The notes below the pieces were generated by a model that was not told the DNA's origin, ran no database searches, and worked only from the letters and a program-made list of their open reading frames with translations. From the NCBI GenBank assembly GCA_020205615.1, contig CM035164.1:2321501-2385500 (forward strand): a DNA stretch of 64,000 bases, given 5' to 3'. This DNA is from Panax quinquefolius (lineage: Eukaryota > Streptophyta > Magnoliopsida > Apiales > Araliaceae). Shown here one piece after another: positions 1,591-63,236 of this stretch (the first letter of the stretch is position 1; every line of letters begins with the position of its first letter). The translations under genes and the position numbers were made by a program.

Positions 1591-1965
1591 CTTCATCGAT
1601 TCTTGCTTCTAGAATAACGCCCTCTTGAACCTTCTTCTTCACATTCATCACTTCGGTATGTAGCTTGAGCGGCTTTTAACTTTATCGATTAAAGTCGATT
1701 CTACTCATATATTCGTTATCTTCACTTGGGTTCCTAGAGTCGTTAACTCTATCTTCATCATTTGTAAGTCGTACAAAATGGGCCTTTGTGTTAACAACAT
1801 CGCACTCGTAAACGCATACGATCTTCTACTCAACGCGTCAGCTACCACGTTCGCTTTCCCATGATGGTATTGAATGGTACGATCGTAATCTTCAACAGCT
1901 TGAGTCAATGTATTTGGCGCATGTTACGTTCGTTTTAAGTAAAGAAATATTTGAGGGTTTTAGAA
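1591..1965 (-). pseudogene. Element A RNase H C-terminus and linker remnant
   Basis: An open stretch at 1705-1908 encodes YDRTIQYHHGKANVVADALSRR, split here as YDRTIQYHHGK and ANVVADALSRR, the conserved end of Ty3-gypsy RNase H. The preceding RNase H catalytic part and all of reverse transcriptase are missing. At about 1960-1970 the sequence jumps from the RNase H motif equivalent to element D 46370-46385 into the protease-reverse transcriptase linker equivalent to D 50325. Element B has the same junction at about 27795. Confidence 0.8.
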
Positions 1966-2074
1966 ATGGGTTTTGTACTGTGGTCAATACAAAATTCGAT
2001 TTCATGCTCTAGGGGTAGGCTAGGAAGTCTTCAAGAATACGTCAAGAAATTTATTAACGATAGAAATATCATTC

Positions 2075-2275
2075 AAAACTGTTACTCTCATCCAAGACTT
2101 GGATAGTACGTCACATTGATACCAACTGTGACTTCTATCCCTTAATCTAGATAGCACCTCACAATGATATCTATCAACTTGTCATCGTCATTCACGACGT
2201 CGCCACTAAAAATCGGCGGTGCATTCCACACCAGGAAGTCATCAACAAAAGGATCGGGGCTCTTTACTTATTGCT
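2075..2275. other. Foreign insert shared with element B (about 200 bp)
   Basis: This stretch replaces about 75 bp of protease-reverse transcriptase linker found in elements C and D. It contains ttgataccaactgtgac (2117-2133 region), which looks like the primer-site/LTR junction of another retroelement. A closely similar insert lies at 27913-28105 in element B, at the same position of the internal region. Confidence 0.7.
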
Positions 2276-2279
2276 TGAT

Positions 2280-2690
2280 ATGACAATGATTGAATTTAGT
2301 GGTTTGGTTGCTTGAATTCGCATAATAGGTTGGTTAGGAATATGAAAGCTAACAACCTTACGAAAAATATGATGAGTAGTCAACCAATCATTTCAAAAAA
2401 AAAACACATCAAAGGCAAGTATTTTCAAAGAGATAAGATCGACAGGTAACGTGAAAGTATCGATTTGAATCAAACAAGATTTATAATCAGTGGAGGTAAC
2501 GAAGGTTTCTCCCAATGGAGTTTTAATAGATAAATCAAAGTTTAACTTCTTCGGAGTTAAGTACAAACATTGAACACAACTAGGTGAAATAAAAGAGTGA
2601 GTAGAACCGGTATCTAACATGGTATAGACTTCGTAAGAGCTTATGATTAACTTACCCATGATAATTATATTCAGGTTCCTCATCACGAAA
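2280..2690 (-). pseudogene. Element A aspartic protease
   Basis: Minus-strand frame 2393-2686 encodes a retropepsin-like domain with the active-site motif LDTGSTHSFIS and the later conserved stretch KILAFDV, after which the ILGIDWL flap region continues in another frame (2280-2395). Retropepsins cut the Gag-Pol polyprotein during particle maturation. The catalytic DTGS is intact here, unlike element D (DTSS) and C (DTGY). An A-rich run at 2393-2402 marks the frameshift. Confidence 0.8.
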
Positions 2691-2699
2691 AAAAAACGC

Positions 2700-3964
2700 T
2701 CTCTCTTAAACTACCGGCTTTGGCTTGTCTGGGACATCCTTTGACATCACTATCCCAGTTGGACTTGACTTTACCATACGATAAAAGCGAGCTAGGTGAC
2801 CTTCTCTTCGGCAATTAAAACACGCTTTGGATTGTTGCGTACAGTTTGGACGGATGTGTCCCTCTTGTCCGCATTTGAAACATACGACCGATGGGCGTTC
2901 TTCTTCCTTTGAAACGAGTGCTGGTGACGACGTCTTCACGTCATTGTTGAACCTTCTCTTCTTAAAATGTCCATTCTTATTATCTTGGCCATGATTACCA
3001 CTAAAATGGTTACCATTATTGGCATGATAATATCCCCCACGATGGTTATCGTTGTTCCGATGACCGTTGTCACTGGTAAAATTATTATCGTGTTGTTGGT
3101 CGTTGCCTTTTGGTTGTGCTGACTCATTATCGCGCTCCAATAACTGAGCCCTATTCACAACATCTGAATATAAACAAAGTTTGTGAGAAATGAGGTATTG
3201 ACGTATATCGAGTTTCAAACCTCGCAAAAACATTCACGTCATTCGCTCTTCATTATCGACCAAATGGGATGCAAACCGGGATAACTCCGCAAACTTAGCC
3301 TCGTACTGCGACACGGTCATATTATTTTGCTCCAGCTTGATGAATTCTACCTCCTTCATGTAACGAATACTTTCGGAAAAGTACTTGTCGTTGAATAATT
3401 CTTGGAACTTCTCCCAAGACATCTTGAGGCCAGTCGGGTACGCTTTTTTCTGATTCCCACCAATGATCTCCTTCTTCACGCAATATAAAGGTGGCGAATG
3501 GAACCTTTTGCTCCTCTGAGCATTCCAAGACATCAAATATCTTGGTAATTTGCTTTATCCATGTCTCCGCCTTAAGTGGTTCTGGCTTTCCCAAAAACTT
3601 CGGTGGTCCCAGCTCCTTGAAATGCTTAGCGGTGACCAACCGTGGGTTACCATTGTTTCTATCTGCATTATGAACAGGAGTTGCCTTCGCCCGTTGTTGC
3701 ATGAATTGCTCCTTAAACTGCTTAGCGGTGGACCGTCGAGAGAAGTTATCGATTTCTTCTACTTGCATTTTGGATGCACGCCTTCACTTGTTGTTGCATA
3801 AATTGCATAAAGCCTCTGACCATCCCATCATTCACCATTTCATCGGTGATATTGTTTTCATGAGGAGTATTGTCCTCTGGTTGCACATTATCCTGATTAT
3901 TGATCTGTGGAGACTCAACGGTCTCCTGTGCTCCATTGATAATCTCAACATTCTCGGATGCCAT
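2700..3964 (-). pseudogene. Element A gag (capsid and nucleocapsid)
   Basis: The gag ATG is at 3964 (protein begins MASENVEIINGAQ). Three overlapping minus-strand frames (3964-3746, 3768-3322, 3536-2706) together cover the Retrotrans_gag-type capsid (WIKQITKIFDVL, DHWWES, FIKLEQNNMTVSQYEAKF, MFLRGLKLDIR) and the nucleocapsid. The first zinc knuckle is intact (CFKCGQEGHIRPNC). The second has lost its last cysteine (CFNCRREGHLARFY). Gag packages element RNA. Two or three frameshifts separate the pieces, so it is scored as broken, though the pieces are long. Confidence 0.85.
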
Positions 3965-4151
3965 TTTTAAACACTACAACAAAACAAGGGTTAATTAACA
4001 TATCACATATTATCCCTATACTTTGACCGACCAATTAAATACCAAATAAACTTAGGTAGGTCATATACTAACGAAGGAATTCCCGCTCTCCCTCCTAGTT
4101 CTTATCTCACATCTTAGCCAGTGGATCATATCCCTAAGCTTTGATACCAAC
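3965..4151 (-). promoter_or_regulatory. Element A leader with primer-binding site
   Basis: The non-coding leader lies between LTR and gag. The primer-binding site TGGTATCAAAGC (minus strand, 4138-4149) complements the 3' end of initiator tRNA-Met. The leader part 4044-4151 is repeated at 6273-6377. Confidence 0.85.
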
Positions 4152-6272
4152 TGTGACGCCCCCAAAATTAGGTATACATCACCCATCTTGGGTCGCCAGA
4201 TACATGGTACGTAATTCAAATACAACTTACTAATACCACCGCTGGGTATGCAATACGACAAAACATAAACCGTGAGTTTGAATACAAATATTATCTACTA
4301 GAGATTATACAAACTCAAAAGGAGTCCTCATTACAATTATTATCACACTATTTCACGTGATAGTGAGGACTACTAATGCTATCCTCCGACCATCACTCCG
4401 CTCCCCGACTCGTCCCAGCTATATTCTCATTTCCTAAAGAGAACAGTGAAGAAAGGGTGAGCTCAACTAGCCCAGTAAGAAATATTATGACTAAGATAAT
4501 GTAGAAAAAAATTATCATTAGCCTCCAACAATGTTAAACTGATAAAATACAATAGACATCAAGTTTAACTGCAGCGGAACAAGCAATCCATTAAAAGAGT
4601 CAAGTAGATAATAGAATCTACTATCTTTTATGATTTAAAAAGTTTTTCATCACTTTTATCGCTGAGACTCAGCTCAATAAATAATCCACATCATTAAATC
4701 ATCCCTGCACTACAGGCCAAGGATATTCTTTAGTATCACGACCGCGAATTATCCATACACTACAGGCCAAAGATAATCGCGTTTTCATCAACGGTCCTGA
4801 TCATGCCATAAAACAATTCATCTTTGCTCCCTTGGCCGAAGAGAATCCATAGCCATAATCATACCAAAAACTATCCATCAATGCACTACGGGCCAATGAG
4901 GACTTTTAATTTTCACATCATTTGTAACATTACGGTCATGATTATACTGAATAATCCATGGTCTAATCATACCAAGTCCATCTATGCACTACAGGCCACA
5001 GATGACTTTCAACATAACATAAACATGAGGATGATGACAATGATATAAGAATTCAATTAAACAAGTTCAAGAATTAATTTGTCCAGAACCAATAACGTCC
5101 AAATTGTCAACATGATAACGCTTTGTAGAGTAAAATTCAAGAATGCTCGTAAGAATATTTTCACAAAAAGATACTGGATGAAGTGCAAATATCAAGGATA
5201 TTCCACTAATTTCATGGAGTATAGAAGTCAAAATTTAAATCAACTAAGTATAATACCGAATGGAATAACAAAAGATATCACCATGCATGCGGTACTTTGC
5301 ATGTATCGCTATTCCAACGTAATAATAATAACGGAACCAGTCGTGTGAGATTCACAATCGACGTGATATTCCAAATGAATAATAAATGCGAATAATAAAT
5401 GATGGAACCAGTCCCACAGATAAAGATGAACGGGATATCCATGAAGAGATTCACACGGTCCAGATTGATTTACTTTAATCTGACGGTCCATATTTAAAGA
5501 AAAATCTTTTAAATAAAATATAATATATTCTATTTATATAAAAAAAAAATTACTATGCAAACACTATGCGGGCACTATGCAAATACTATGCAGGCACTAT
5601 GCAAACACTATGCATAATAAAATATAATATATTCTATTTATAGAATAACTTTAATAAAGTATTCTATTTTATATAAAAAAAATTTACTATGCAAAAAACT
5701 ATGCATAATAGAATATAATATATTCTATTTATTGAATAACTTTAATAAAGTATTCTATTTTATATAAAAAGATGTTTCTATTTTATTACGTTAATAATAC
5801 GAATAAAACAAAACTTCTAAATCAACAATAATTGAATCAAATAATGTGAGATACTATGCAGCAACTATTGTAGCAATAATTGAACAAAACTGAGTGACTT
5901 CTCACATAAATATCAATAATCAATACCGTGTGCTACTATGCAACAACGCGTATTACTGTACTTTTACTACCGAGTAGTTCAACAGTATCAACGGTAAAAC
6001 TTCTGCCGTTATTTTTAATAAAATATTTTTGTCGTTTTCTCAATCCGACAATAATTCCGTTGTGGGGTCCACCAATGATTGTTCCGTCGTACGAATATTT
6101 CCTGTTTAAAACGAATATTCTCCGACCAATCGAATATAATATAACAACTTGCATACTTTGCAAAATTTATAAATATTACCCACAACTATAACATTATCTC
6201 AAATTCACACCATAATATAAAAAATTATTTCGAGAAAATTAATTTTTTATTCATAAAATCTGGGGTTTCACA
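4152..6272 (-). repeat. Element A inner LTR (promoter deleted)
   Basis: Bounded by tgtgacgccccc at 4152 and ggggtttcaca at 6272, 2121 bp. Compared with the outer copy (6378-8873) it lacks about 350 bp spanning the TATA box and early leader: the join lies at about 5440-5455. It retains the conserved inverted repeat (4323-4371) and the repeated cactacgggcc-type motif (4700-5010). No 5-bp duplication flanks it (ccaac versus aaata), so it is not a simple insertion. Confidence 0.85.
4323..4371. repeat. Conserved LTR inverted repeat
   Basis: Outer arms AGTCCTCATTA and TAGTGAGGACT, with an inner CACTAT/ATAGTG pair that competes for the same right arm. Related copies occur in every Tekay-type LTR in the window, about 170-220 nt from the LTR's 3' end in element orientation. 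Confidence 0.7.
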
Positions 6273-6377
6273 AAATAAACTTAGGTAGGTCACACTAGCG
6301 AAGGAATTCCCGCCTCTCCCTCCTAGTTCTAGTCTCACATCTTAGCCGTGGATCATATCCTAAGCTTTGATACCAAC
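6273..6377 (-). repeat. Duplicated leader of element A with second primer-binding site
   Basis: This 105-bp copy of 4044-4151 includes a second TGGTATCAAAGC site (minus strand, 6364-6375). With the adjoining LTR it forms a tandem LTR-leader-LTR-leader arrangement. Confidence 0.85.
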
Positions 6378-8873
6378 CGTGACGCCCCAAAATTGGTATA
6401 CATCACATATTCTACGAGTCGCCAAATACATGTACGTAATACAAATACAATCTTTAATATACAACAAGAGAGTCATGAGTTTTAATATAAATCTTCTCTC
6501 TGACATATATCCACTCTCGAATAAGTCCTCATTACATTTATTGTCACACTATTTAACGTAATAGTGAGGACTACTAGCTAATACTATCATCCCACCATCA
6601 CTCCGCTCCCAGACTAATCCCATTCACGCTCTCATTTCACAAGAGAACGGTGAAAGAAAAAGGGTGAGCTCAACTAGCCCAAGAAGAAATATTATGACTA
6701 AGATAATGCGAATAAATTATCATTAGCCTTAAACAAATGTAAACCGATAAAATATAACAAACATCAAGTTTAACTGCAATGAACAAGCGAATCCATTAGA
6801 AGAGTCAGTAGAAATAAAATCTACTATCTTCTATGATTTAAAAGGTTTTTCATGACTTTTATCACGAGACTCGACAATAAATAATTCACATCATCGAATC
6901 ACCCCGCACTTACTGACCAAGGATATTCTTTAGTATCACGACCACAATTATCCATGTCTTTATGGGCCAAGAATATTTGTGTATTCATTAATGGTCATGA
7001 TCATGCTAACAACCGTCCATCAATGCACTACGGGTCAATGAGGACTTTTACCACATCATTTGTAACATTACTACCATGATTATTACCGAATAATTCCTCG
7101 TCATAATCATACCAAGTCCATCTATGCACTTCACAGCCACGTATGACTTTCAATAAAATATAAACATGAGGATGATGACAATGATATACTGAATTCAATA
7201 AAACAAGTTCAAGAATTAATTTATCCAGAACTAATAATGTCCAAATTGTCAACATGATATCGCTTTGTAGAGTAAAATTCAAGAATGCTCAAAAGAAAAT
7301 TTCCATAAAAAGATCTTTGGATGAAGCCTTAAAAATCAAGGATATTCCACAAATTTTATGGAGTATGTAAGTCAAAACTTTAACCAACCGAGTATAATAA
7401 AGAATGGAATAACAAAAGAAATCACCATGCATGCGATACTTCGTGATGTATGTGTTATTCCAACAGAATACTAAATAACGAGAACCGTGTCAAAGCGTAA
7501 TTCGCACCGCCAAGCGGATGTTCCAACGAATAATAAAGAATGGAATAACAACGAAATCACCATGCATGCGGTATTTTGCTTAGCGTGTTATTCCAATGTA
7601 ATACTAATAAGGATTTTAATCGTGTCCCACAGAAAACGCATGAGCGAGTGATATATTTCAACGGAATAATAAAGACGAAATCGGTCCTACAGAAATGCAT
7701 GCGAGCGTGATATTCCAATGTAATAATAAAGACAGAATCGGTCCTACGTAAACGCATGCATGTGATATTCCAAATGTAATAAGTAAAGACGGAATAATAG
7801 AAGAATGTCACCAAGTATAGGGTAGCCGGCAGATACAGTTATTCCAATGTAATAATAAAGAATGGAATAACATAAGTTCTCTTCATGAATACAAAAAGAA
7901 TAACACCCCTTATAGAGTACAACAAATAATATTTCATACCTTAAGAAGAAGAGTCTTTGGATATATAAGTAGTGAAGTAGCGAGAATACTTTCTTCTTTC
8001 TCTATAGTTTATCTCTACAGAGTTTCAATGAATTAAGTAAGAAAATAATGAAGGAATGAGCTTCTATTTATAGAAAAATGGATTGCGTAGTAACTTAACT
8101 CATGAAGCGGTCCAGATTGATTTACTTTAATCTGACGGTCCATATTTAAAGCAAAATCTTTTAAATAAAATATAATATATTCTATTTATAATCTAATAAA
8201 ACGAATAACTTTATAAAAGATTTTACTATGCAAATATTATGCAAATCCTATACAAATACTATGCATAATAAAATATAATATATTCTAATTATTGTCAATA
8301 AAATGTATAACTTTATAAAAGTATTACGCTTTTATATAAAAGATTTTACTATACAAAATACTATGCATATTACTATGCACTACTATGCATAATAGAATAT
8401 AATATATTCTATTTATAGAAAAACTTTATAAAAGTATTACATTTTTATATAAAAGATTTTTGTATTATTACATTAATAATACCAATAAAACCGAGTGACT
8501 TATCACGTAAGCATCAATAATTAATACTGTAGTGCTACTACGCAACCCACGCGTATTAATGTACTTTTAACACCCTGTGTTTCAACAATTAACTGTAAAA
8601 CTTCCGTTATTTTCATAAATTATTTTTGTCGCTTTTCTCGATCCGGCAATAATTCCGTTATAGGTCCACCAATGATTGTGTTGGTTGTATCTAATATTCC
8701 CTATTAAAACGAATATTTCCCACCAATCGAATATTATATAACAACTTGCATGTGATTTTGCAAAATTTATAAATATTACCCACAACTATAACATTATATC
8801 AATTTCACTCCATAATATTCAAAAATAATATTTATAAAAAATTCATCTTTATTCAAAAAGTTGGGGTTTTACA
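6378..8873 (-). repeat. Element A outer 5' LTR
   Basis: 2496 bp from cgtgacgcccc (first base mutated from T) to ggggttttaca at 8873, where the sequence leaves the element family. TATA box at 8064-8072 (minus). It contains the conserved inverted repeat near 6520-6575 and several copies of the roughly 75-bp unit with ttcca...aataataaa around 7440-7870. Confidence 0.85.
8064..8072 (-). promoter_or_regulatory. TATA box of element A outer LTR
   Basis: TATAAATAG on the minus strand in the standard LTR context. This is the only complete promoter upstream of element A's gag, because the inner LTR has lost this segment. Confidence 0.65.
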
Positions 8874-9409
8874 GTCCGCCCCTGCTTGTATACTTTAGTT
8901 TTATAAAAATGAGTTTATCTCAAGTATTTTAGTAAAATTTAACTTTACCAATGAAAAGATCATGTAAAAATATAATTATTTGAAATTTTTTATTTAATTT
9001 GAGGCTGTGTAGTATCATTATTATAACATTGTAAAATATTGACGACTAAAATTAATTGAACTTTATTTAGCATAAAGTCTATAATAGGACAGTGTTTATC
9101 ATGGAGTTAAATTTGGTCAATTGATTAATACAGTGTTGGCACGCAGGCAGGAGGTGATTTCTCTCTCTCTTCGTGTCAGTATTGTATTGGTCACATGACC
9201 AATTTACCATGAAGTTTACTTCATAATAACCAGATCCCTATAATAAACATCACCAAATTATGTAAAAATTCATATATTTAAATATTTATACATATTCTTT
9301 AAATCGATATAATTAAATATATCTAAAAACCCCTTAAAACAAACGTATTAACCATATATGATATACTAGGTAGATACCTAAGTTATATCCCTTTTTCACT
9401 ATATATATA
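8874..9409. other. AT-rich intergenic DNA with one dispersed repeat
   Basis: No coding signal. Positions 9100-9237 resemble, in opposite orientation, 13855-13985: both hold atgaagttaa-like and ttggtcaatt-like blocks around a GC-richer core (cgcaggcaggaggtgat here, gcgtaggcggaaagtgat there). This is probably an old short transposon of unknown class. Confidence 0.45.
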
Positions 9410-9537
9410 CTAGATGTGTCCTGTGCCTCCGGCACTGTATAGACGGTGAGGTTTATCTCAAATTTTGGACGACCCAAATAATTTATTGAGTGAGCGAAAA
9501 ATTTAAAATCATTTGTATTTTATTAGATATATATATA
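9410..9537 (-). mobile_element. Non-autonomous Helitron, 3' end (5' end uncertain)
   Basis: On the minus strand the sequence ends with hairpin GTGCC-gga-GGCAC, then aggacacat, then CTAG followed by T, which is the Helitron 3' signature. The 5' end may be the TCTAATAAAATAC start at 9537 (preceded by A), but that is weak evidence. Confidence 0.55.
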
Positions 9538-10189
9538 TATATATATATTCACTAATAATTCAATATTGTGATTTAAAAAATCTATATAAATATTTTTTAT
9601 TAAAATTATAAAATTATGTCATAAAAGTCAAATTAAGACAAATCAAATGAGACACATAAATAAATAATTTTTAGAAAATGTCATACACCAAAATAAATAA
9701 TTTTCAAAAGTTATATTAATGGTAGGAAATTCCTTTTTGATTGATATTAGATCTTATTTATTTATTAATTTTTGTTGTCGAGAACTTGGGGTCGTGCCCA
9801 CTGGCTCAGTCACTGGCTACGCCTTTAATAGGACCACCAATTGTATATTCTTTGAATCTTAAAACAAGACAAGCTTGATAAATTGTGCAGAGAAAGTTTA
9901 AAAGCAACTTAGTAAATTTTTTTTATATCAAATTGTGTATAATATAATTTATTTAATTGATTTATAACATAATTAAATAGGGTCTATATATAATAAAAAT
10001 GATAATTATCCTGCATAATATAATTTACTTAACTAAATTTTGGTTAATACAGTAAGTAATTAATAAGTGTTTTAGATTCATAGGAATGAAAACGAATATT
10101 GTAGACTTATTATAAAACTTTTGATTTTTTTCGCATCTTAGAAAAGAGTAATAAATCTTAAAAAATTTGTATCCAACACCAGAAAATAT
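9538..10189. other. AT-rich intergenic DNA, no feature seen
   Basis: Contains a short TA microsatellite at its start and scattered poly-A/T runs. No ORF, terminal repeat or RNA motif that I can support. Confidence 0.5.
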
Positions 10190-10204
10190 ATTATATTATT
10201 TTTT

Positions 10205-10402
10205 GGTAATGTGGAGTATCCCACCCGCAGGCTGACTAATCTATTCAACTCGAACCAGTGCGAGTTTGGTAAACTGCTTACGCAAGGCAGTGTGTAGCCC
10301 TATTTGTTCACAATTGTTGCTAGTGGGAGTCGATCCTAAGATGTTCGGGTCTACAACTCATCCCAGGACAACCTTGAACCACTGCACCAATTGCGGGGGT
10401 TT
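10205..10402 (-). mobile_element. tRNA-derived SINE
   Basis: A 198-bp unit flanked by a 15-bp direct duplication (10190-10204 and 10403-10417, ATTATATTATTTTTT). On the minus strand its head carries an A-box-like TGGTGCAGTGG and, about 45 nt on, a B-box-like GGATCGACTCC, the internal RNA polymerase III promoter of tRNA-type SINEs. It ends in an A-rich tail. The duplication is strong evidence of target-primed insertion; the family is not identified. Confidence 0.75.
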
Positions 10403-10417
10403 ATTATATTATTTTTT

Positions 10418-11396
10418 TGTATTTCCGAAATATATAGCTCCATGTAAAGTCAGAAATGAAGCAAGCGTTAGAGCCGATTCAATCTTCATTTCGATTAAAA
10501 GTTCGATTTGAGCTCGACTCGAAATATAAATGAGTCAAATATGAGCATATTTTAATGTTCGATAAAGTACTCGAACCTTCTCAAATTATAATTTTCTATT
10601 AGTACTCGGATCATATTCGTTGGAAAAATCCAAACCGCTTCTAGATCGATTCTAATCACGTTCATTTCGATAGGTAAATAAATGTCTTCAATCAAACTTT
10701 ATTTTATACTCGATAAATTTTATGAACCAAATCTGAACAACTCAATACTCAGATCGACTCGATTCGTTTACACCCTTAACTCTATAGCTTTCTATTAATT
10801 GTTTCTCCTGTCACTATAATATATCCTTAAGTTACTGAATTGTTTTAGTGAGTCAACTCGGAACAGATTAAAACGACAAATCTTGTCTTTTTATTTTTGT
10901 GTATTGATGACCACATTATAGTCCTTCATATAATACTAATATACCAAAATTACAATAATATTTTGGTAATTAAATAAATTATATTATACAAAATGATGTA
11001 CTTATTGGTTATTATCATTAGACTAATCCATATATAACATACCATTAATTAATTTAACTCTTATTTGTGGCTTTTGCTGCTCAAGCACAATGACATGCTT
11101 AATATTTATAAATTCTTGACTATATTTGTCATTGTCTTTAGTCAAATGAATTTTTGACATAATTTTGTCAAAGAATTTATCATATTTCATCTATCAAATT
11201 CTTTTTCCTTAAAAAATGTCATAAAAGTCTAAAATCAAATTTGAAGTTCCAAAATTTAATAAATTAAAATTAAAATGTTGTCAATGCCATCTCAATAATT
11301 TACACGATAACTCAACCTTTTTTTTATATATCCACGATAAAGCAACTTAATGTCACATCACATGAGACTTATTACTATCAATAAGTCTTGGTAGAT
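10418..11396. other. Intergenic DNA with a degenerate ctcga-rich repeat
   Basis: Positions 10460-10780 hold several gagctcgactcg-like words and end in gattcgtttacaccctta, reminiscent of ends of short TIR elements, but I cannot find a matching partner end. The rest, to 11396, is AT-rich with nothing recognisable. Confidence 0.35.
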
Positions 11397-11699
11397 AGTT
11401 TTTTTGGATCAGAATATTGGATATTTTTATTTTTGTGATTTGTAAAATTGTATAGTATTTATTTTAATCGAAATTTTTATAAAATATAGTATTTTAAGTA
11501 TAATTTTGATATATATACACTAATAGAGTTGTACAATATGTACAACCCTGTTTTGTATATATATCCAAATTATATCTAAAAATATTGTATTTTATAAAAA
11601 TTTCAGTTAGAATAAATACTATATATTTTTTGAGAGTCACAAGAAAAGCAAAAAATAAATTTTTTTTGAAAATGTCCAATATTCCGGTCCAAAAAAGCT
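11397..11699. mobile_element. Foldback (long inverted repeat) MITE
   Basis: Two arms of about 145 bp run from agtttttttggatc (11397) and ggtccaaaaaagct (to 11699) to a perfect central palindrome GTTGTACA-ata-TGTACAAC (11528-11546). Arms pair along almost the full length with small indels. No clear target duplication is seen. A transcript would form one long hairpin. Confidence 0.7.
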
Positions 11700-11784
11700 G
11701 TTTGTGAATATTTGACAGAATTGGATGAAGAATAACACCAAGTAATTATATAAAAGTTGTCTAATTTATTTTGATAAATTATTA

Positions 11785-12074
11785 CTTCCTCCGTTCCTAA
11801 AAGATTATCGTTTTAGAAGAAATAATTTATTCTAATTTATTTGTCGTTTACAACTTTCTAGAAAAATAAATTATTTACTTTTCTATATCACTCGTATCTT
11901 CTCTCATTTTCATAAAAAATTATCTTCCTTGTATTAATAATTTTTAACTTTCCATAAGGGGTAGTAATGGAATTTTAAACAAATTTTAATTGTTAAATGA
12001 TGGAGTAGTATTAAATGACTTTTTTAATCCATGTGCAAAAACCTTAAACGACAATCTTTTATGAACGGAGATAG
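11785..12074. mobile_element. Stowaway-type MITE
   Basis: 290 bp with terminal inverted repeats cttcctccgttcctaaaag at left and the complement of ctatctccgttcataaaag at right, flanked by TA (11783-11784 and 12075-12076). The ctccgt-type ends and TA target match the Stowaway (Tc1/mariner-derived) family. Confidence 0.8.
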
Positions 12075-12137
12075 TAATAAACTGTATAATACTCCCTCCG
12101 TCCCAAGATAAAAGTCTCAGCTTACTTTTTATGCATA

Positions 12138-12466
12138 CAGTAAAACCTCTATTTAGGAATAGATTTGAGACCAAACTATTTATATTCTAATTGAGAGGTT
12201 ATTACTAAATAGAGGTATTGGTACAAAATATTTTTCGAACATCCAAAAATATTCACTTTAACAAAAATATCAATAAGAACTCCCTAATAAATTATTTAGA
12301 TTTCAAACTAGGAAAATGTAGTCTTTTATTTATAGGAAATATAGTCTTTTATGGGAAAATGTGATCTTTTATAGAAAATATAGTCTTTGTATAAAAAAAA
12401 TATAGTTCTTTATAAAAAATGTAGTCTTTTATAAAAAATATAGTCTTTTAAAATTAATATTGTCTT

Positions 12467-12506
<40 letters not shown>

Positions 12507-16370: not shown

Positions 16371-16426
<56 letters not shown>

Positions 16427-16427
16427 T
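16371..16427. repeat. (TA)n(CA)n microsatellite
   Basis: Compound dinucleotide run: about 22 TA units, then about 6 CA units. Confidence 0.95.
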
Positions 16428-17236: not shown

Positions 17237-17307
<71 letters not shown>

Positions 17308-17972: not shown

Positions 17973-19770
17973 TGTGACGCCCCAATTCTCTACACTTCCT
18001 GTAGCAGATTTGGTGCTCACGTCTATAAATATTTCATAATATTTAACTTCTATTTATTCAAGGTTCAAAGTATATCATAATAGATAGTAGTTCTCGCCAG
18101 AACAATTACTGTGTTTGGATACCCTCACTTGGATGTATAGATTTATATCTCATTGATATCTCTTTCATATCAATAATTCCTATCTATCTGATATTCATAA
18201 TATTAGTGATAAGATTGTTCTTGGAATCGAAGGGCGCATTCCGGTTAAGGTAAATACCATACCGACGTTCATCAAGTGGAACCTCAGTGATTACAGAACT
18301 CTCAAAATCATTCAATACCCTCATTCAGATGTATAGTTCATATGGATATTGTACTAAATCAGTATTACCCTCTAAATCATCTAAAAATGTAAGTATAACA
18401 CAATTGATAAAACAAAAGATGATAATATATTTTATAACTTTGAATTCGATTACATAGATTCCAAGATCATATTGTTATTACATCAGAGTCTAAAAAGACT
18501 TAAGCAAATACATGTAAAAGCATTAAAAGCTAATCTAGCAGGGTCTCTATCCATTGAGGTGTGTATTGGAACATCCGGGGTTTTCATTCAACGCTGAAAA
18601 GAAAATTATATTTGCAAGGATGAGCTACAAAAGGCTCAACAAGTTTTAAATATTTAACAAGGTATACTCACACTATGTTTGAATTGAATGAACATTTAGT
18701 TCAAGATTTTTCATATATATTATACTGAGGTTTGTCTGTCAAACCACACATATTAATTATAATTTCTGTCAGTTATAAAAACTTAGAAATCAGAGGTTGA
18801 TCTGTTCAACCGAACTTAGTAATCATTTCTAAAGGTCATATAAACTTAGAAATTATTAGTTCAGATATTTAATAGGGTATTAGCCTATTTATATCCTAGG
18901 AGTATGCATATCATCATAACAATAGTGTCCCAGACACACAAAGGTCAGTTTAGTACTGCCTATAAACCCTGGTCAATATATACTTGCCTGGTCGTCACTC
19001 TTATATAAAGAGGCAAATAATTTCAGTATATATGACGTACCAAACATTATTAGTTTCTACTCAATTTATGCTTTGATATCAAATTAAATTCACACAAATA
19101 ATAGTTCATTTCATTAAGTTAACCTTGGAAAAAAAGCAATAACTTCCCAACAATAGATAACACGAACAAAATATTTAAACGAGTTCGTACAATAGATGCA
19201 CAAGTATTAGAAGACATAGTGTAAAGAACGTTTAGTTAATGCTACTTGAAGGCGTTACGTAACCTAAATATGTTCGAATATATCCATAATGGTCGTTAGA
19301 ATTTATAAGAACGTGTATCTAATTGAACTATTTAAGTCTAGTTTGGTTTTGGTTTCGATTCGGTATCTCGATCGCTTCATTTGATAATTAAACGTGTTGA
19401 TTTATCAACAAAACTTTATTTAAAAGCTTAAATATTATTTTAGATAATTTAATTATCACTCATAATATTTGTAGAAGCTTATAATAATTTAATTATCATT
19501 TATAATAATTTTTAAAAACTTAATACTATTTTTCAATGATTTATTTAATAAAATTCCAAATGATTTTATTATCATTAATATTTAAATAAATTAAATTATT
19601 AATAAAAATTATGTCAAAATGTCAAAATTTATTTAATATAACTTAAAATGAATTTTAAAACTTAATTATTAATTATCAATCATCAATTATCAATATTTAT
19701 TTATTATTTAATTCTAATTTATTTTAATTATTATCATTTATTTTTATTTAATCTTGTCGCTAAAGGCTAT

Positions 19771-19819
19771 AACGACAGTCAGAACTGTCGTTATTGGTGT
19801 TCTTCATCTGATGAAGAAC
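19771..19819. repeat. Two adjacent perfect hairpins in LTR H
   Basis: First: AACGACAGT, loop caga, ACTGTCGTT (19771-19792). Second: GTTCTTCATC, one-base loop, GATGAAGAAC (19799-19819). Only 6 nt separate them. Confidence 0.8.
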
Positions 19820-20465
19820 AATCAGTTAATGCCTTGGAGGCTAAGTTTGATCGGATATAATTTCCAATTGGTTATCTTTTTAGATGCCTAAATTGTTCTA
19901 GGTTGTTGTATTCATGTAACTCTATAATTATATACAAAGTTTGGGATCTAATTATATCATGACAGGAAGATATAATTGGTCAAACTACGTTGATCAACCT
20001 GTTCTTCACGTTTCTAGAAATTCCATAAAGTATTCGGTCAATGTCGATCAACGATCTTTGACCGTTAATATCCTGCATCTTATTTATTGTTAAGGTGATA
20101 TAATGATATAGATTTGTAGCATACATGTCAGGGTACAAAAAAGTTCCAATGGATTACACTATCAACATCATAAATGAAAGATCTAGGTTGGTTAAAAAGT
20201 TGTCAAGCCCCTGTCTAGATTTTTGGAAATTCCAAAAATTCATTTTCTGTGACCGGTCAACGGGTTTTGACCAGCAATATCTTTCAGCACAAAGATCCTA
20301 TGAGCATGATTTCAGTTCCAGATTGTTAACCTCATGGCATAATATAACTATGAAGCTTAAAACAGAACAAACAACTAACAGGGTAAGATCTAGAGGCCCT
20401 GACATTAGGCTATCAGCCACAATTTCTAGTTTTGGACAGTTTGCTATTTTCTTCATTTTTATACA

Positions 20466-22032
20466 GGGCAAAAGTCCAAAAATGCCCCTAATGTTTACCC
20501 CGATATCCCACTTACACCCTGAACTATTTTTTTTCCTAAAAGTACACTCAACGTTACAAATTTTGGCTCAACTATGCCCCTCCCGTCAACGGATCTCCAC
20601 TTAGATAAATGTGACTGACTAGGCTGGACACATGGCAAAAATAAAATTTAATAATCTTTTTTTATTTTCTCGCTCTCCTCCCTCTTTTGTCTCTCTTTCT
20701 CCTTTTTTTTCTTCTCCCTCTTCTCTCTCTCTATTTTCTTCTTCCTCTGTTCCTTCCTCTGTTCCGTTATGCAGATGATCATTCAGTTCAGTGCATCATC
20801 ATTTCCACAAGGCCTACTTATAGATGGATTCTGCAAATGAATCCCCCCATTACAATAACCTCTCTCTTACTTTTTTCTTAGCTCCAACACATAATCCATC
20901 AGACCATTTTGACAACATGGGGTCAGAATACAGAACATGGGAATGACTCCATGCTGCTTTTTGACAACTGGGGTCAGAATAAAGCAAGGTTATTGATGAA
21001 GGCCAGCCACCATAAATGATGCATATAAAGAGATGGATAATGTAAAAGGTGGCTGCAAAATCCAAGCACTTCTTTGCCCTCTCAATCAAGTATAGCAAAT
21101 AACTAGCCCTGCATAAACATTAAAATTAAAATTACGATGCTTTAAAGACATTTATTACTTCTTCATAGTGATTTTAGCACAAGCAGCATAGACCAAAAAA
21201 TCAAATCAACCTCAGGTAACCCAAAACATCAACTTTTAAATAACTAAACTAGATAGAATTAAAGGGCAATAATAATTCATATAATCTCAAATTCTACTAT
21301 TTTTTTCACAAATACCCATTTCTTTAATTTCTATAACAATTCATAAAACCAACTAACAAATTCATGAAACCCACAAAAATTATACAATCAATTTTCAAGT
21401 AGGCCAATAAAAAAAATTAAATAGGGGTATGACAAATAAAAGTTAAATTAAAATTATGGGTATCAAAAAGATTCAAAACCCTCACCTGATATCAGCTCCA
21501 ATCTCTTAAATTAAACCCATCAAATTTATTCAATGAAATCTATAAACCCTAACCACTTTTGAATTTTTCAGCCATAAGAAGATAGAGATTGGGAGGAGAG
21601 AGAAAATAAATGCATGACACTTTGTATACATCGTATCTTTGCAAAAAGATGTATGAGAGAGGATGATAGCGATTCCTAGGAGTTTTGTCGCTTAAATCCA
21701 TTGGAAAATCACCAGTAAAAGAAGAGTTAGTTAAAGAATGATGGAAGTTAATGAAGAGAGGGCTTAGAGAGAGAATGGGGTGTGGTTAGTGTTTAGAGAG
21801 AGAATATTCAGTTTAATGGGTGAGGATGAGTTGGAATTTTTATTTAGTTTTTTATTTTTGCCATGTTAGTTAATTTTAACGTCCGTTTGTCTAGTTGTCA
21901 TTTATTTTTAATGAGAGAGGCATAGTTGAGCCAAAATTTATAACGTTGAGTGTACTTTTGAAAAAAAAAAATAGTTCAAGGTGTAAGTAGGACATCTGGA
22001 TAAACTTGAGGGGCATTTTTGTACTTTTGCCC
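20466..22032. mobile_element. Pack-MULE (Mutator-like, non-autonomous)
   Basis: 1567 bp with long terminal inverted repeats (about 200 bp, outer ends gggcaaaagtccaaaaatg and gggcaaaagtacaaaaatg). It is flanked by a 10-bp duplication TTTTTATACA (20456-20465 and 22033-22042), the size expected for Mutator-like elements. The interior has no transposase but carries a fragment of a host gene (SYS1-like exon), which defines a Pack-MULE. It is inserted in solo LTR H. Confidence 0.85.
20988..21108 (-). pseudogene. SYS1: Captured exon of a SYS1-like Golgi membrane protein gene
   Basis: The minus strand encodes a 40-residue stretch with LLYLIERAKKCLDF and YIIHLFICIIYGGWPSSIT, matching the central part of plant SYS1, a small multi-pass Golgi protein that anchors an ARF-like GTPase (family knowledge). 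It is preceded by an AG splice acceptor (21109-21110), so the capture was from genomic DNA with intron sequence. After SSIT the reading frame continues into unrelated sequence (to about 20850) containing a duplicated ctgacccca...gttgtcaaaa block. First and last exons are missing, so no functional protein is expected. Recognition is by motif memory, not by search. Confidence 0.7.
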
Positions 22033-22296
22033 TTTTTATACATTAAGATGTTATGAAACTATGTTTTATCAACCCAAATCACTAAATAACATAAGACTTA
22101 ACATTTCTAAACATTAAAACATAAAATCTACCGAAGTATTAAAGATCTAGCATCGAATTAGGGTTTTTACCTCTCAAAGTAAATATTCAATTCATTCTCT
22201 TTGATTCTGATCTTTGATGGTTATGGACTTTATATTGATCAACTTTTACCTAAATTTTGGTGTTTATTTCGTGGACTTAATGAATGGAAGTGCTTG

Positions 22297-22305
22297 CTAT
22301 TTATA
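22297..22305 (-). promoter_or_regulatory. TATA box of solo LTR H
   Basis: TATAAATAG on the minus strand, 555 bp from the LTR start in that orientation, a plausible U3 length. Confidence 0.55.
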
Positions 22306-22863
22306 AGATGGACAAGGCTAGGGTTTTATTGTCTTTAAACCATTACTTCCAAGCTATGTTTTGATTTATCAAGTGGCTGCCTATGGTGTCGGGTTGCAGG
22401 CCTAAAAATTCTGTTCAATGCACTTTGAATCATTACAAAAGGTGACTCACCTATTTCTAATTTTTGTGAAAAAGGTTCGGTCTCCTTTTCTTTATTTTTA
22501 TTATTAAAGGAAGAGAAAATCAACTTTGCTTCTTTTTCATTCATGTGGTTGAGGTTGTAAGGGTATTTTGGTCATTTTTCATGCCTTTTTAGGGTTTATG
22601 GTTTATCCCTTAGGGTTTATCAATTCGTACTAGGGTTTAATAATTAAGATTAAGGTTTTTAATTTTAGTTTACGGTTTCCTAATTAGGTTTAGGGTTTTC
22701 AAATTATGTTTTCATAATTAAATTTGATAGTGTTATATTTCATTTAACATATAACAACACATAATATAAAGACACATTATTTCAAGTATACATATAATAA
22801 CTTGTATTAATATTCAAAAATCTTATTAAAGATTCTTATTAGGGTTTGGATTATTATAAGTAT

Positions 22864-22986
22864 AGTACTTGACCATTTCATATTACACTTAGAATCCGCA
22901 GTTTAGTTCTGCAGACTGATGGTTCACCAAACGACATCATTTGAATTATATCGTTAATAGACTCAACATCCTCAGTTTAGTTTTGC
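22864..22986. repeat. Fragment of the hairpin-rich repeat
   Basis: Inverted relative of 16985-17110: shares the ccgcagtttagttctgc hairpin (22895-22915, one stem mismatch) and the gaattatat...ttaatagactcaac block. It lies between LTR H and the CACTA end. Confidence 0.65.
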
Positions 22987-23091
22987 CACTACAACAAAAA
23001 GGCTTATCACCGACCGCATATCTGCGACCACATACGGTCGTAAATGAGCATTAGCGACCGACTGTAGTCGCATATATTAGTTGTGACTCCC
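22987..23091. mobile_element. CACTA transposon terminus
   Basis: Starts CACTACAACAAAAAGGCTT, the conserved plant CACTA (En/Spm) terminal repeat, followed by subterminal gcgacc/ggtcgc-type repeats in both orientations (23010-23080). It is cut at 23091 by insertion of element D. Its other end is not in the window, so element D, with B, C, E, F and G inside it, sits inside this CACTA. Confidence 0.8.
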
Positions 23092-23164
23092 CCAAAATAG
23101 GTATACATCAACCATTCTGAGTCGCCAATACATGGTACAGAATTTGAATACAAAATTCTTTTAT
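23092..23164 (-). repeat. Element D 3' LTR, first piece
   Basis: Begins tgtgactcccccaaaatagg and breaks at the TTTAT duplication made by element B (23160-23164). It continues at 42268. Confidence 0.85.
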
Positions 23165-24831
23165 TGTGACGCCTCCAAAATTAGGTATACGTCGCCCATC
23201 TTGGGTCGCCACTTACATGGTACAGAATTTAAATACAACTTACTAATATAAGCGCTAGGTATACAATACGACATAAAGCGTGAGTTTGAATACAAATATT
23301 GTCTACTAGATATTATACAAACTCAAAAGGAGTCCTCATTACAATTATTATCACACTATTTCACGCGAATAGTGAGGACTACTAATGATATCCTCTCGGA
23401 CCATTACTCCGCTTCCAGGCTCGTCCCAAATATATTCTCATTTCACGAAGAATAAGGGAAAGAAAGGGGTGAGCTCAACTAGCCCGATAAGAAATATTAT
23501 AACTAAGATAATGTAGAATAAATTATCAATAGTCTTCAACAATGTTAAACCGATAAAATACAATAGACAACCGGTTTAATCAAGTGAATAATACGCAATC
23601 CATTAAAAGAGTCAAGTAGAAAATAAAATCTACTATCTTTTAGGTTTTAAAAGGTTTTCATCAATTTTTATCACTAAGACTCGGTTTAATGAATAAACCA
23701 CAATATCTAATCATCCCCGCATCACACGGCCAAGGATTTTCATCAAATTATCAATGGTCATGACTATACCGAATCACCCCTTGTCATAATCATACCAAAA
23801 ACTATCCATCATCGCATGACGACGTGCCACCGAGGACTTTTGTCACATCATTTATATCAAGCCATGATTATACCGAATGATCCTCGGTCATAATCATACT
23901 AAGTTCATCTATGCACGTAAGCGAAAGATAACATAATATAACATGAGGATGATGACAATGACATAATAATTTCAATAAAACAAGTTCAAGAATTATTTTA
24001 TCCGTGAATTATTAACGTCCAAATTGTCAACAAGAATCTTTGCTTTGTAGAGTAAAATTCAAGAATGATCGAAGAATATTTCCATGAAAAGATATCTTTG
24101 GATGAAATGCAAATATCAAGGATATTCTACTAATTTCATGGAGTATAGAAGTCAAAGTTTTAACCAATTTGGGTATAATAAAGAATGGAATAACAAAAGA
24201 AATCACCACGCATGCGGTTGCATGCATGAACAAGTTATTCCAATGTAATAATAATAACGGAACCAAATGTGAAATTCACAATCGCGAGGATGATCCAACA
24301 GAATAATAAATGCTTGAATAATAAACAATGGAACCCGTGTCCTGTAAAACACACACGATGTGATATTCCAATGTAATAATAAATGCGGAATAATAAACAA
24401 TGGAACCCGTGTCCTGTAAAACACACGAGATGTGATATTCCAATGAGAATAATAAAGAATGGAATAACGAAAGAAGATCACCAAGTATAGGGGATTCCAG
24501 CATGATACTGAGTTATTCCAATGAATAAATAAGAATGGAATAATATAAGGATTTCACCAAGTATAGGGTATCTGGCGTATACAAAGTTATGTATAGGGTA
24601 TGCCACTTTTACAAAGTTATTCCAATGTAATAATAATGAATGGAATAACGAAGTTCTCTTCATGAATAAGAAAGAATAACACCCCTTACTAGGTACAACA
24701 AATAATATCCCTTACCTTAGAAGAACCGAATATTGGAAAAGTGAAGTAGCAAAATACTTTTCTTCTTTCTCTCTATAGTTTCTCTCTGAGTTTCAAAGAA
24801 TTAAGTAAGAAATAATGAAGGAATGAGCTTT

Positions 24832-24840
24832 CTATTTATA
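24832..24840 (-). promoter_or_regulatory. TATA box of element B 3' LTR
   Basis: TATAAATAG on the minus strand followed by aaagctcattcc, as in the related LTRs. Confidence 0.6.
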
Positions 24841-24995
24841 GAAAAACTGAGGGTGGCTCTTGGTCTTAACGAAGGGTCAAAATGACTCTTGGTAATATTG
24901 AAGAGACAACTACTATTTGCGAAGGGGTAATTAACCCTTGGAACACCGAAGAGGCAATTAACTCTTGGTAATATTGAAGGGACAACTACTATTTG

Positions 24996-25172
24996 CGAAG
25001 GGGTAATTACTATTGACGAAGGTAATTACTATTGAAGAAGGTAATTACTATTCACAAAGGTAATTACTATTGACGAAGGTAATTACTATTGAAGAAGGTA
25101 ATTACTATTCACAAAGGTAATTACTATTGACGAAGGTAAATACTATTGACGAAGGTAAATACTATTGACGAA
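24996..25172. repeat. 19-bp tandem array in element B 3' LTR
   Basis: About nine copies of gaaggtaattactattgac with variants (attgaag, attcaca). Upstream of the TATA box in element orientation; a matching array is in the 5' LTR at about 31700-31885. Elements C, D and G lack it. Confidence 0.85.
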
Positions 25173-25854
25173 GAGACTCTTAGATGATGACATATGGGCC
25201 CCCCATAAAATAATCAAACTTACCACAAACGCCTCTCATAATGAGACTCTTTATATACATCAAGGATTGAATAAATATTACCACAAATCATTTTATTTTT
25301 AATCAACACATTTTTAATCTTTCAACAATTATTAATCATTTATAACTTGTCATCTCAATTAATAATATAACATATTATATGATGATGATCTTTGTGACAA
25401 TAATTGAATCAATAATATAAGAGATATGATGCGTTAATTCTTTGTAGTGATAATTGAGTATAGCTAAGTGACTTCTCACGTAAAGCATCAATAATCAATA
25501 CCGCGTGTCTTCTTATGCAACCACGCCAGACATCGTATTTCTTTTACCAATTTAGTTCAATAGTTTTAACTAGTAACACCTCCGTAGTTATTTTTATAGA
25601 AAGATAATTTTATCGTTTTCTAACTACGACAATACTTCCATTGTGGGGTCCACTAATGATTGAGCCGTCGTATTTAATATTCCCAAACAAAAAGAATATT
25701 CCCCACCAAACGAATATTTTATAACAACTTGCTTACTTTGCAAAATTTATAAATATTACCCACAACTATAACATTATATCAAATTTATTCCATAATATTC
25801 AAAAATAATATTTATAGAAAATTCATCTTTATTTATAAAAATTTGGGTCTTACA

Positions 25855-25934
25855 ATCTCCCTTCTTATGAAATTTCGCCCTCGAAATTAGGGTACGTACC
25901 TGATATGATAAAGAGGTGAGGATACCTTGAATAC
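25855..25934 (-). pseudogene. Element B polypurine tract and last codons of pol
   Basis: The polypurine tract (25855-25866, complement taagaagggagat) and the end of the polyprotein (the IPGTYPN-like tail) remain. At about 25935 homology to pol stops and foreign sequence begins. Confidence 0.7.
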
Positions 25935-27770
25935 CTTTATCGTTAAAAATATTAAATTCATCTTCGCAATCCACCAAAGATATTCATTAACAATTCATCT
26001 TTGCACTACAAAGCTAAAGATATACAAATCAGAAAACCAATAATCTTTGAGGCCTTGACTTAATAAGTATCACGACCACGAATTATCCATGCACCTTCTT
26101 GGTCAAGGATATTCGTGTTTTCAATTACTGATCATGATTATACCGAATAATCCTTGGTCATAATCATACCAAGTATATCAATGCACTACTGACGAAGATG
26201 ACTTTTACCACATCCATGAATTGATATTTCATTCTTTGAGACTCATTTCGATAATTAATCCATATCATCGAATCATCCACGCACTGAGCCAATGATATTC
26301 ATTAGTATCACGACCACGAATTATCCATGCACTACTGACCCAAAGATAATCGTGTATTCATTAAGTATCACGACCACAAATTATCCATGCACTACTACCA
26401 AAAATAATCGTGTATTCATTAGTATCACGACCACAAATTATCCATGCACTACTACTAAAAGATAATCGTGTTTTCAATTACGGTTATGATTATACCGAAC
26501 AATCCACTGGTCATAATCATCATACCAAGTCCATCTATGCACTACTGAGCCATGTATGACTTTCAATATAATATAAGCATGAGGATAATGATATAAAGAA
26601 TCAATCAAATGAGATAAAGGATAAATATTAAACATTTATAATATAATTTATCTAGGATTCAAGAATATCCCCATGTTATCAATCACTTAATAATCTCATA
26701 ATCTAATATCATTAATATTATAACAATATTTTAATCACTTCTTAAATTTATAAATAATTTATCTCAATTGTTTACGCTTTACCATATAATGCATTTAATC
26801 ATTCAAAAATGCCATACTCATAAGATATCATCACCAATTATCAAATCCCTAAAAAAAAAATATGCATATACTCTATATAGGATTCTCTAGCCATAAAATC
26901 CTATTTTCCAATTTTGTTACTTCACATAACATATTTAACTCATATGTTCGTAACCAAACTATTTTTATGAAAAATATCAAATCAGTTCCAAAAATATTTC
27001 TTTTCAGGGATTTAGCATAATATAGTCCCATAATGAAAATATATTTTTCTCGAAATTTTTAAAATTTATTTCCTATTTTTCAAAAATTAATTTCTAATTA
27101 ATTCCTTAAGAAATTTGCTACCTCAAGTTTAACTCCAGAAATTCCCAAATCATGGCAGGACCTTACGCATATTAATGTGAGCCTCTAGTTTAAATTTCAT
27201 GGTCATCGGAGTTGTAGAACTCCGATTATAGCATTTTTCGTCAGAAAATCCTAAATATTGAAATGGTCATAACTTGCTCATTTTAAGTCGGAATGAGCTC
27301 ATTTTTGGACAGGAGGTACTTTATAACATATATTTTCATGTCCCAAAAGGCCAGAATTTTTCACATAAATTTAGTGGCCGAAATAGCCCTTACAAAAACG
27401 TGGCAGCAACTTTTTGGACATTTTGAAGTTTTGACTCCTTTGCTAAAATCAGTCCACACGAAAATCTACAACACCTTTTTCATTGATTCCACTTGGATTA
27501 GTTAGGTAACTCATAGATCTAACTCTAGGACTTAACCACACTCAAAAATTCAAAATATATAAGGAGATTTGGTCAATTGAATTTCATGTTACGTTTTTCA
27601 CCAAAATCTGATTTTTAACTCCTTGTGATTTTTAAGAAACTTTCATGTTTTCACATACTAACCAACATAACTCATCATAACACTTACTAATACCACGTAT
27701 ACCCATGATTTTCATTAGTCCAATGCTTTTATTATGACTTTCATCATAAACCACGTAAAAGCTGCTCATT
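25935..27770. other. Foreign LTR-like cargo in element B
   Basis: About 1.8 kb unrelated to gag-pol. Its left part (26060-26560) carries the repeated ttatccatgcactac motif seen in Tekay-type LTRs, with a roughly 60-bp tandem period near 26280-26475. The rest (26640-27770) has phrases such as ggtcatcggagttgtagaactcc, split here for length as ggtcatcggag and ttgtagaactcc. It is probably an LTR segment of a different gypsy family, captured within B. Both ends are internal to B, and no target duplication is seen. Confidence 0.6.
26060..26480. repeat. About 60-bp tandem repeat with gcactac motif
   Basis: Four imperfect units, each with tatcacgaccac, aattatccatgcactac and gataatcgtg. The same motif occurs once per 55-90 bp in the Tekay-type LTRs. 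Confidence 0.75.
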
Positions 27771-28560
27771 TTAGTTGAAGAAATATTTGAGGGTTTAAGA
27801 AATGGGTTTTAAACTGGGGTCAATACGAAATTCGATTTCACGCTCTAAGTAGGCTAAGAGGTCTTCAAGAATATGCCAGGAAATTTATTAATAATAGAAA
27901 TATCATTCAAAATCGTGGACTCTCATCCAAGACTTGGATAAGACGTTACATTGATACCAACTGTGACTTCTATCCCTTAACCTAGATAGCACCTCATAAT
28001 GATACCTATAAACTTGCCATCTTCATTCACGATGTCGCCTACTGAGAAAGTCCGGCTTCTTGCATTCCACACAAGAAAGTCAACAACGAAAGGTTCGGGG
28101 CTCTTTACTTATGGCTTGATATGACAATAATAATTGACTTTAGTAGTTTGGTTACTTGAATTAGCACAACAAGTTGGTTATGAATATAAAAGCTAACAAC
28201 CTTACGAAAAGCATGATGAGTAGTTAACCAATTGATTCCTAAAATCACATCAAAGGCAAATATTTTCAAAAAGATAAGATCGACGAATGTAACGTGAAAA
28301 TGTTTATTTGAATCAAACAAGATTTAAAAATAGTAAGCGGTAACGAAGGCTCCTACTAACGAAGTTTCAACCAATAAGTCAAAGTTTAACTTCTTGAGTC
28401 AAATTTAAGCGTTGAACACAACTAGGTGAAATAAAAGAGTGGGTAGAATCCCCGGTATCTAACACGGTATAGACTTCGCAAGAGCTTATGATTACTTACC
28501 CGTGATAATCTTATTCGGGTTCCTCGTCACGAGAAAAAAAATGCTCTATCTTAAACTCTA
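27771..28560 (-). pseudogene. Element B protease and linker remnant
   Basis: Minus-strand piece 28105-28320 contains FAFDVILGINWLTTHHA, the protease flap region; an LDTG-containing active site lies near 28450-28470. Downstream is the foreign insert shared with A (27913-28105), then the linker (27800-27900), joined at about 27795 to a 20-bp stub of RNase H. Several frameshifts. Confidence 0.75.
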
Positions 28561-63235: not shown

Positions 63236-63236
63236 T

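Follow-up and report, generated by a model that had tools for sequence, protein, structure and literature searches.

How can a retrotransposon that has lost its reverse transcriptase (RT) stand inserted at more than one place? This question is raised by a stretch of 64,000 nt of the Panax quinquefolius genome (contig C14:2321501-2385500; 3.57-Gb genome in 821 contigs), which is called the window here. The window is a nest of related gypsy-type long terminal repeat (LTR) elements. Two of them, A and B, are without RT, and two others, C and D, carry it. An earlier reading of the same letters (the original prediction) had claimed that A and B have a common RT deletion and a common foreign insert, and that the defective form was itself copied with the polymerase of a relative. 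The results given below make it very probable that A and B belong to one non-autonomous Ty3/gypsy lineage, which lacks RT and would have been amplified in trans.

The predicted common junction was confirmed at the base level. In both elements the RNase H sequence breaks off after aaatatttgagg and continues, via gtttt in A and gttta in B, with the word agaaatggg of the protease-RT linker. The junction of A at 1941-1970 reads aaagaaatatttgagg-gtttt-agaaatggg and that of B at 27777-27806 reads gaagaaatatttgagg-gttta-agaaatggg. C and D carry RT between the two points that are fused in A and B. The same stub of D (minus strand, 37678) continues into RNase H, the stub of C is at about 46380, and in C (50328) and D the linker word comes after the RT start. 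The joined ends appear to have a short cttt(t)a-like word in common, which would be expected of a template jump. The junction was aligned in 20 A-type copies (L009-L027 and window A) and five B-type copies (L037-L040 and window B), the 19 A-type and four B-type ones being drawn from the 39 other matches listed per type. A 27-nt junction word is present in all 25 copies and exact in 23; one base of the linker word is changed in L022 and one base of the stub is missing in L023. Further losses accompany the junction. A is also without the integrase core, and the corresponding junction near 1575 was found in 18 of the 19 fetched A-type loci. In B, a 1.8-kb filler stands where integrase and the greater part of the chromodomain region have been lost. 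A 12-nt protease deletion, which the original prediction did not list, is common to the A- and B-types.

The original prediction had proposed a genome search with the junction and the insert, and both words proved abundant. The 27-nt junction word (W at the variable base) was found 13,112 times by exact matching, which leaves mutated junctions uncounted, and its reversed control was found 0 times. The A form accounts for 2,147 and the B form, by subtraction, for 10,965. A 28-nt insert word was found 3,404 times (control 0), and the RT-start word of the RT-bearing relatives (30 nt, three two-way letters) 9,803 times (control 0). Because the junction and RT-start words differ in length and ambiguity, the counts can be compared by order of magnitude but not as a precise ratio; to that order, RT-bearing relatives whose LTR ends are similar are as numerous as junction copies. 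Full-length copies (7.7-8.4 kb) at all 13,112 places would amount to roughly 3% of the genome, but many copies will be partial. The two forms are unevenly spread: C1:1-16.16 Mb contains no exact A-type junction out of 2,147, where 9.7 would be expected from the genome mean (P 6e-5), despite 100 B-type junctions in the first 15.85 Mb of C1. RT-start variants also shift along C1 near 16-21 Mb. This A-type gap might mark the edge of a subgenome or of a translocation.

The flanks of A and B differ, as do their target-site duplications (TSDs), aaata and tttat; the two are therefore separate insertions. Among the nine A-type copies with both ends found, five have a perfect 5-bp TSD (L015, L017, L018, L019, and L023). 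Thus, the loss of RT is shared by many independent insertions, as seen in the junction counts, the TSDs and the inspected copies. The claim that the defective form was itself copied and inserted holds on the separate TSDs and the number of exact junctions. Since one defective form was copied and re-inserted many times, the polymerase must have come from elsewhere, as predicted, most likely from intact relatives. Element A, on the minus strand, starts 1,291 nt outside the left edge of the window, ends at 6272 and is flanked by aaata on both sides; element B, also on the minus strand, spans 23165 to 42262, with tttat. The features of the nest are as follows.

1-1228, beginning outside the window at C14:2320210, minus strand: 3' LTR of A, TSD aaata on the far side
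1229-1570, minus strand: chromodomain-side remnant of A adjoining the polypurine tract, with homology to C 44693-45053 and D 39053-39424
1571-1590, minus strand: integrase-core deletion junction of A
1590-1956, minus strand: RNase H C-terminal / integrase N-terminal remnant of A, similar to D 37672-38049 and C 46028-46400
1941-1970, minus strand: RT-deletion junction of A
1962-2083, minus strand: kept protease-RT linker of A, from the alignment
2084-2271 (edges within a few nt), minus strand: insert of A replacing about 70 nt of linker, with ttgataccaactgtgac at 2116-2132
2276-2690, minus strand: protease remnant of A, with the 12-nt deletion common with B near 2370 and a poly-A tract (2395-2404) at the expected ILGIDW codons
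2695-3968, minus strand: gag of A, frame broken, with a zinc-knuckle open reading frame (ORF) at 2706-3233 that has a Pfam match and a capsid-side ORF at 3322-3768 without one
4138-4149, minus strand: primer-binding site (PBS) of A, TGGTATCAAAGC
4152-6272, minus strand: 5' LTR of A, TSD aaata at 6273-6277
23165-25854, minus strand: 3' LTR of B, TSD tttat at 23160-23164
25938-27766, minus strand: 1.8-kb filler of B where integrase/chromodomain would lie; the end adjoining the junction is present in 4/4 fetched B-type copies and 19/20 places sampled on C1
27777-27806, minus strand: RT-deletion junction of B
27919-28112, minus strand: insert of B, the same as that of A
28110-28560, minus strand: protease remnant of B, of the RT-less lineage
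28560-29690, minus strand: gag of B, apparently of D-like origin, with the crossover at about 28480-28570
29882-32174, minus strand: 5' LTR of B, part 1, split by D
32175-41873, plus strand: RT-bearing element D, nested in the 5' LTR of B, with LTRs at 32175-34592 and 39426-41873
41874-42262, minus strand: 5' LTR of B, part 2, TSD tttat at 42263-42267
42263-51521, minus strand: RT-bearing element C, in whose LTR B is inserted; internal part 44668-51521

A and B have the features of Ty3/gypsy LTR retrotransposons, namely LTRs, a tRNA-type PBS, a polypurine side and a 5-bp TSD. The RT-bearing relatives have zinc-knuckle gag, RVP protease, RVT_1 and RNase H in the expected order. The Pfam matches were zf-CCHC in A and C, RVP_2 in C and D, and RVT_1, RT_RNaseH and SH3_Tf2-1 in C, the RT of D being recognised by DNA similarity to C only. 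The Chromo match in C (E 1.8e-4, 21.8 bits) is below the Pfam cut-off of 25.1, and its counterpart in A is a DNA similarity only.

The second shared change is the linker insert. It lies at about 2084-2271 in A and 27919-28112 in B, is 86% identical between them, measures 188 nt in A and 194 nt in B between two fixed words, and was absent when looked for in C and D of the window. The predicted insert of about 200 bp is therefore present; however, it is not a simple addition, since it takes the place of about 70 nt that the linker has in C and D. It had further been taken for the primer site and LTR end of another element. In favour of this, its ttgataccaactgtgac equals the PBS/LTR boundary of A itself over 17 nt (E 6e-4), in the orientation of a captured LTR end with primer site. 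The source element was not found: the flanks of the 17-nt match had no other match in the window beyond A and B, and the other insert places examined all belonged to the same RT-less lineage. The insert was also considered as a captured coding exon, which is unproven; window A has an open stretch of 41 codons, but 38 or more codons are open in just three of the 20 A-types and three of the five B-types, and in most A-types the stretch is 33 codons.

The linkage between junction and insert was followed on C1:1-15.85 Mb, where exact matching gave 100 junctions and 22 insert words; in 10 cases the two stood in register. Ten of the 90 junction places without an exact insert word and ten of the 12 insert places without an exact junction were fetched for inspection. 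The insert was present at all ten junction places (at L041 only partly), and the junction, with small changes, at nine of the ten insert places, L052 being broken off inside the insert. A match of L053 to the RT-start segment was a 14-nt hit inside the filler and was taken as chance. Along C1:1-48.95 Mb, an exact RT-start word 100-300 nt before the insert word was found at 0 of 64 places, although such an exact-word test can miss mutated starts. Among the places examined, the insert is confined to RT-less elements.

In order to see what coding the lineage has kept, codons were compared in 20 A, five B, six C, five D and three further RT-bearing copies (X). Among protease codons with a single change, the non-synonymous share is 0.72 between A and B, where 0.72-0.78 is expected under no selection. 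The same measure is 0.50 for C-D, 0.51 for C-X, 0.61 for B-B pairs and 0.54-0.70 within the RT-bearing groups. After subtraction of within-group differences, third positions take 0.35 (0.22-0.47) of the protease change in A-B and 0.75 (0.54-0.91) in C-D, and this contrast has a bootstrap P of 0.001 over 113 codons. The neutral-like A-B change indicates that protease coding was not maintained after the loss of RT. A poly-T tract (sense) alters the ILGIDW-coding stretch in most A-types, of which only L024 reads like C and D; in a looser motif test, ILGIDW was found in 4/20 A-type, 5/5 B-type and 13/14 RT-bearing copies. The tract varies in length (window 2395-2404) and may be a slippage tract that has become widespread in the lineage. 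As for gag, the nucleocapsid codon test did not show a clear excess of third-position change, not even in comparisons between RT-bearing groups, and is hence powerless for A-type gag. The capsid frame of window A contains a frameshift, and apparent shared stops at 115 and 135 and the figures for the later part of the capsid were discarded. Open gag stretches of 345 aa (L022) and 275 aa (L017) occur among nine A-type copies. Of eight B-type loci, window B included, five have gag nearest D and three have lost most of it, retaining an A-like nucleocapsid fragment only; one gag-region deletion falls between two copies of ccttctcttc. The original prediction that gag and protease are kept was thus only half right: the A-types may have kept gag, but protease is unconstrained between the A- and B-types, and the gag of the B-types is either mostly lost or D-like.

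The B-types are mosaics. In the linker tree A and B are split from the RT-bearing copies with a support of 0.88, and in the protease tree with 0.59 or 1.0 depending on the side of the midpoint root. In the nucleocapsid tree, B falls with D instead (0.96). By sliding-window comparison the switch lies at about 28480-28570 in window B and in L040, and window B is nearer D than A from there up to the primer site. The gag of four fetched D-like B-types is 87-88% identical to D and 76-77% to A, the values for window B being 88% and 75%. The PBS variant TGGTATCGAGC is common to window B and D, and TGGTATCAAAGC is found in A, L015, L019 and L038. Template switching between B-type RNA and a co-packaged D-like RNA would be the simplest reading of this mosaic, and it points to D-like elements as candidate helpers. 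D also fits as a possible helper by its matching LTR ends and PBS: all four elements resemble one another at the LTR ends and in the purine-rich stretch that precedes the 3' LTR, and A, B and D also in the PBS. Five criteria for pairing autonomous with non-autonomous elements (PBS, LTR termini, promoter, age and population) are given in the cited sections of PMC9744471, and the comparison made here bears on two of them, PBS and LTR termini. In linker and protease, the distance of A and B is 0.159-0.179 to C and 0.193-0.223 to D, with X between. A and B being nearer C, the RT-less lineage seems to leave the tree on the C-like side, with moderate support.

The timing was estimated outside CG/CNG. 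There the 12 LTR pairs (nine fetched and three in the window) differ by 0.021-0.057, and the A- and B-types diverge by 0.156 in the protease and 0.067 in the linker, the latter value being biased low because the copies were selected by similarity in the linker. The protease divergence exceeds that of the LTR pairs, so the branches split well before the sampled copies inserted. Both RT-less branches would thus have kept multiplying without RT after splitting.

Several observations weigh against this account. The fetched full-length copies are the best matches to A or B and a non-random sample. Four of the nine A-type copies have no clean TSD (L012, L016, L022, and L025), although in L012 and L022 the PBS-side word ccaac stands before the copy, so that these two are probably recombined arrays; of the two B-types for which both ends were found, L038 shows a perfect TSD, and L037 no clean one. 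The two LTRs of the nine fetched copies are 88.6-93.8% identical. A difference of 6-11% means that the activity seen is old. The differences are densest near CG/CNG, and some of them may be base-calling errors. The LTR of A begins with TGTGAAACC and those of B, C and D with TGTAAGACC, differing at inner bases, and the PBS of C lies outside the window. Finally, A may supply Gag and would then be only semi-autonomous. As to base calling, differences in the LTR pairs 32175-34592/39426-41873 and 23165-25469/29882-32173 are about four times denser near CG/CHG. In the LTR pair of D they amount to 0.271 near CG/CHG versus 0.062 elsewhere, with more transversions (112) than transitions (84). This density together with the transversion excess suggests base-calling error at methylated sites besides deamination.

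The alternative that survives best is the semi-autonomous partnership just mentioned, in which the A-type and the gag-bearing B-type trade Gag for the RT and integrase of C/D-like elements, as for RLG_Sabrina_SA and RLG_Quinta. The 345-aa and 275-aa stretches make a supply of Gag by A possible, and gag is present in 5/8 B-type loci. However, the protease is unconstrained between A and B, and most of gag is lost in 3/8 B-type loci, among them L038 with its perfect TSD; the gag test itself is powerless here. We consider this partnership a real possibility, though short of even. In the non-autonomous reading that we prefer, an ancestor related to RT-bearing elements, and nearest to C-like ones in linker and protease, would have lost RT by deletion at short matching words, and a captured segment would have altered its linker. 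RNA from its own LTR promoter would be packaged, as we infer, in particles of RT-bearing relatives, whose RT would copy it and whose integrase would insert the product. Co-packaging would permit template switching, by which one B-type branch may have gained a D-like leader and gag, while another lost most of gag and still spread. Tentatively, and with the odds rather against it, we also propose a change of helper by module swap: the RT-less lineage would have drifted from C-like relatives, a D-like leader and gag would have made a successful B-type branch, and packaging compatibility rather than enzyme coding would then have been kept by selection.

It is improbable that recombination carried the insert-bearing, RT-less state from one family to another, with A and B not being sisters by descent in this part. 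Their mosaic structure would suit such a transfer, as would a protease distance of 0.161 for A-B, which nearly equals the 0.169 of A-C. Yet the junction at the base level, the insert ends and the 12-nt protease deletion are all the same in A and B, and the linker distance of 0.100 for A-B is far below the 0.159-0.223 of A or B to C, D or X. That A and B are unrelated decayed elements alike by chance, or pieces of one segmental duplication, is hardly tenable and was ruled out, because, full of frameshifts as both are, their flanks and TSDs differ and the same junction stands in thousands of places on many contigs. Neither of the outcomes that the original prediction had named as refuting it, one segmental duplication or a lack of further copies, was thus observed.

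The remaining parts of the window were also mapped. D is bordered by taagt on both sides. Directly right of A, 6273-8873 is a fragment of another element (leader, PBS and LTR), in whose leader A is inserted. In the filler of B at 25938-27766, about 26235-26670 is LTR-like, with tandem LTR-like units near 26296-26476 that are 92% alike and about 59 nt apart, and about 1.1 kb has no long match elsewhere in the window. An LTR-like block at 47403-50277, apparently a solo LTR, lies in the pol of C between RT and linker. Another repeat-flanked element at 51522-64000, with direct repeats 51522-52286 and 63237-64000 that are 93% alike, is inserted in the gag of C and contains an LTR-like block at 53405-55858.

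Among known systems, the original prediction had named TR-GAG elements, which are LTR elements with gag and without pol enzymes and were reportedly first described by Chaparro et al. in 2015. This likeness holds only loosely, since the A/B lineage retains protease and pol remnants and one of its branches is without most of gag; the wheat GAG-Pro 'semi-autonomous' RLG_Sabrina is the better fit. LARD / BARE-2 type elements are thought to be mobilised in trans. The gag-less B-types come close to LARDs, yet pol and gag remnants are recognisable in the lineage, and against the LARD trait of having no internal coding domains stand the zinc-knuckle Pfam match in A and the protease/gag similarity. TR-GAG and LARD / BARE-2 type elements are named in the cited part of PMC10552921, and a BARE2 with disrupted gag in that of PMC9744471.

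The closest known systems are RLG_Sabrina/WHAM of wheat and Quinta of einkorn, and the A/B lineage is of the same kind. According to the cited sections of PMC9744471, RLG_Sabrina (SA, NA) and RLG_WHAM are high-copy gypsy populations without RT and integrase, with a gag-protease form and shorter variants whose gag-pro is lost or replaced, and their helper was inferred from PBS, LTR ends and other criteria. The A/B lineage is likewise high-copy and without RT, with gag-lost or gag-replaced variants. In the same sections, however, the Gag-Pro ORF of Sabrina_SA is intact, and Sabrina_SA bears almost no resemblance to Wilma, its helper. In the A/B lineage no such intact, maintained ORF was found, the protease is unconstrained, and linker and protease are roughly 78-84% identical to those of RT-bearing relatives. 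For RLG_Quinta / RLG_Cereba, the cited part of PMC11302176 describes a non-autonomous gypsy derivative with divergent gag segments between similar flanks, explained by template switching, which resembles the gag swap proposed here. Quinta, on that description, keeps gag and a DUF and is centromere-specific, whereas the B-types replace or lose gag and their copies are scattered over the C1 parts listed. The lineage can be regarded as a parasite of a parasite that is traceable in sequence: RT was lost, the constraint on the protease was lost, and gag was lost or replaced. RT-less and RT-bearing sisters thereby offer an internal comparison for cis-required functions and helper choice. What distinguishes this lineage from the systems above is that the lost protease constraint and the gain or loss of gag can be followed by comparison with RT-bearing elements that are closely related to it.

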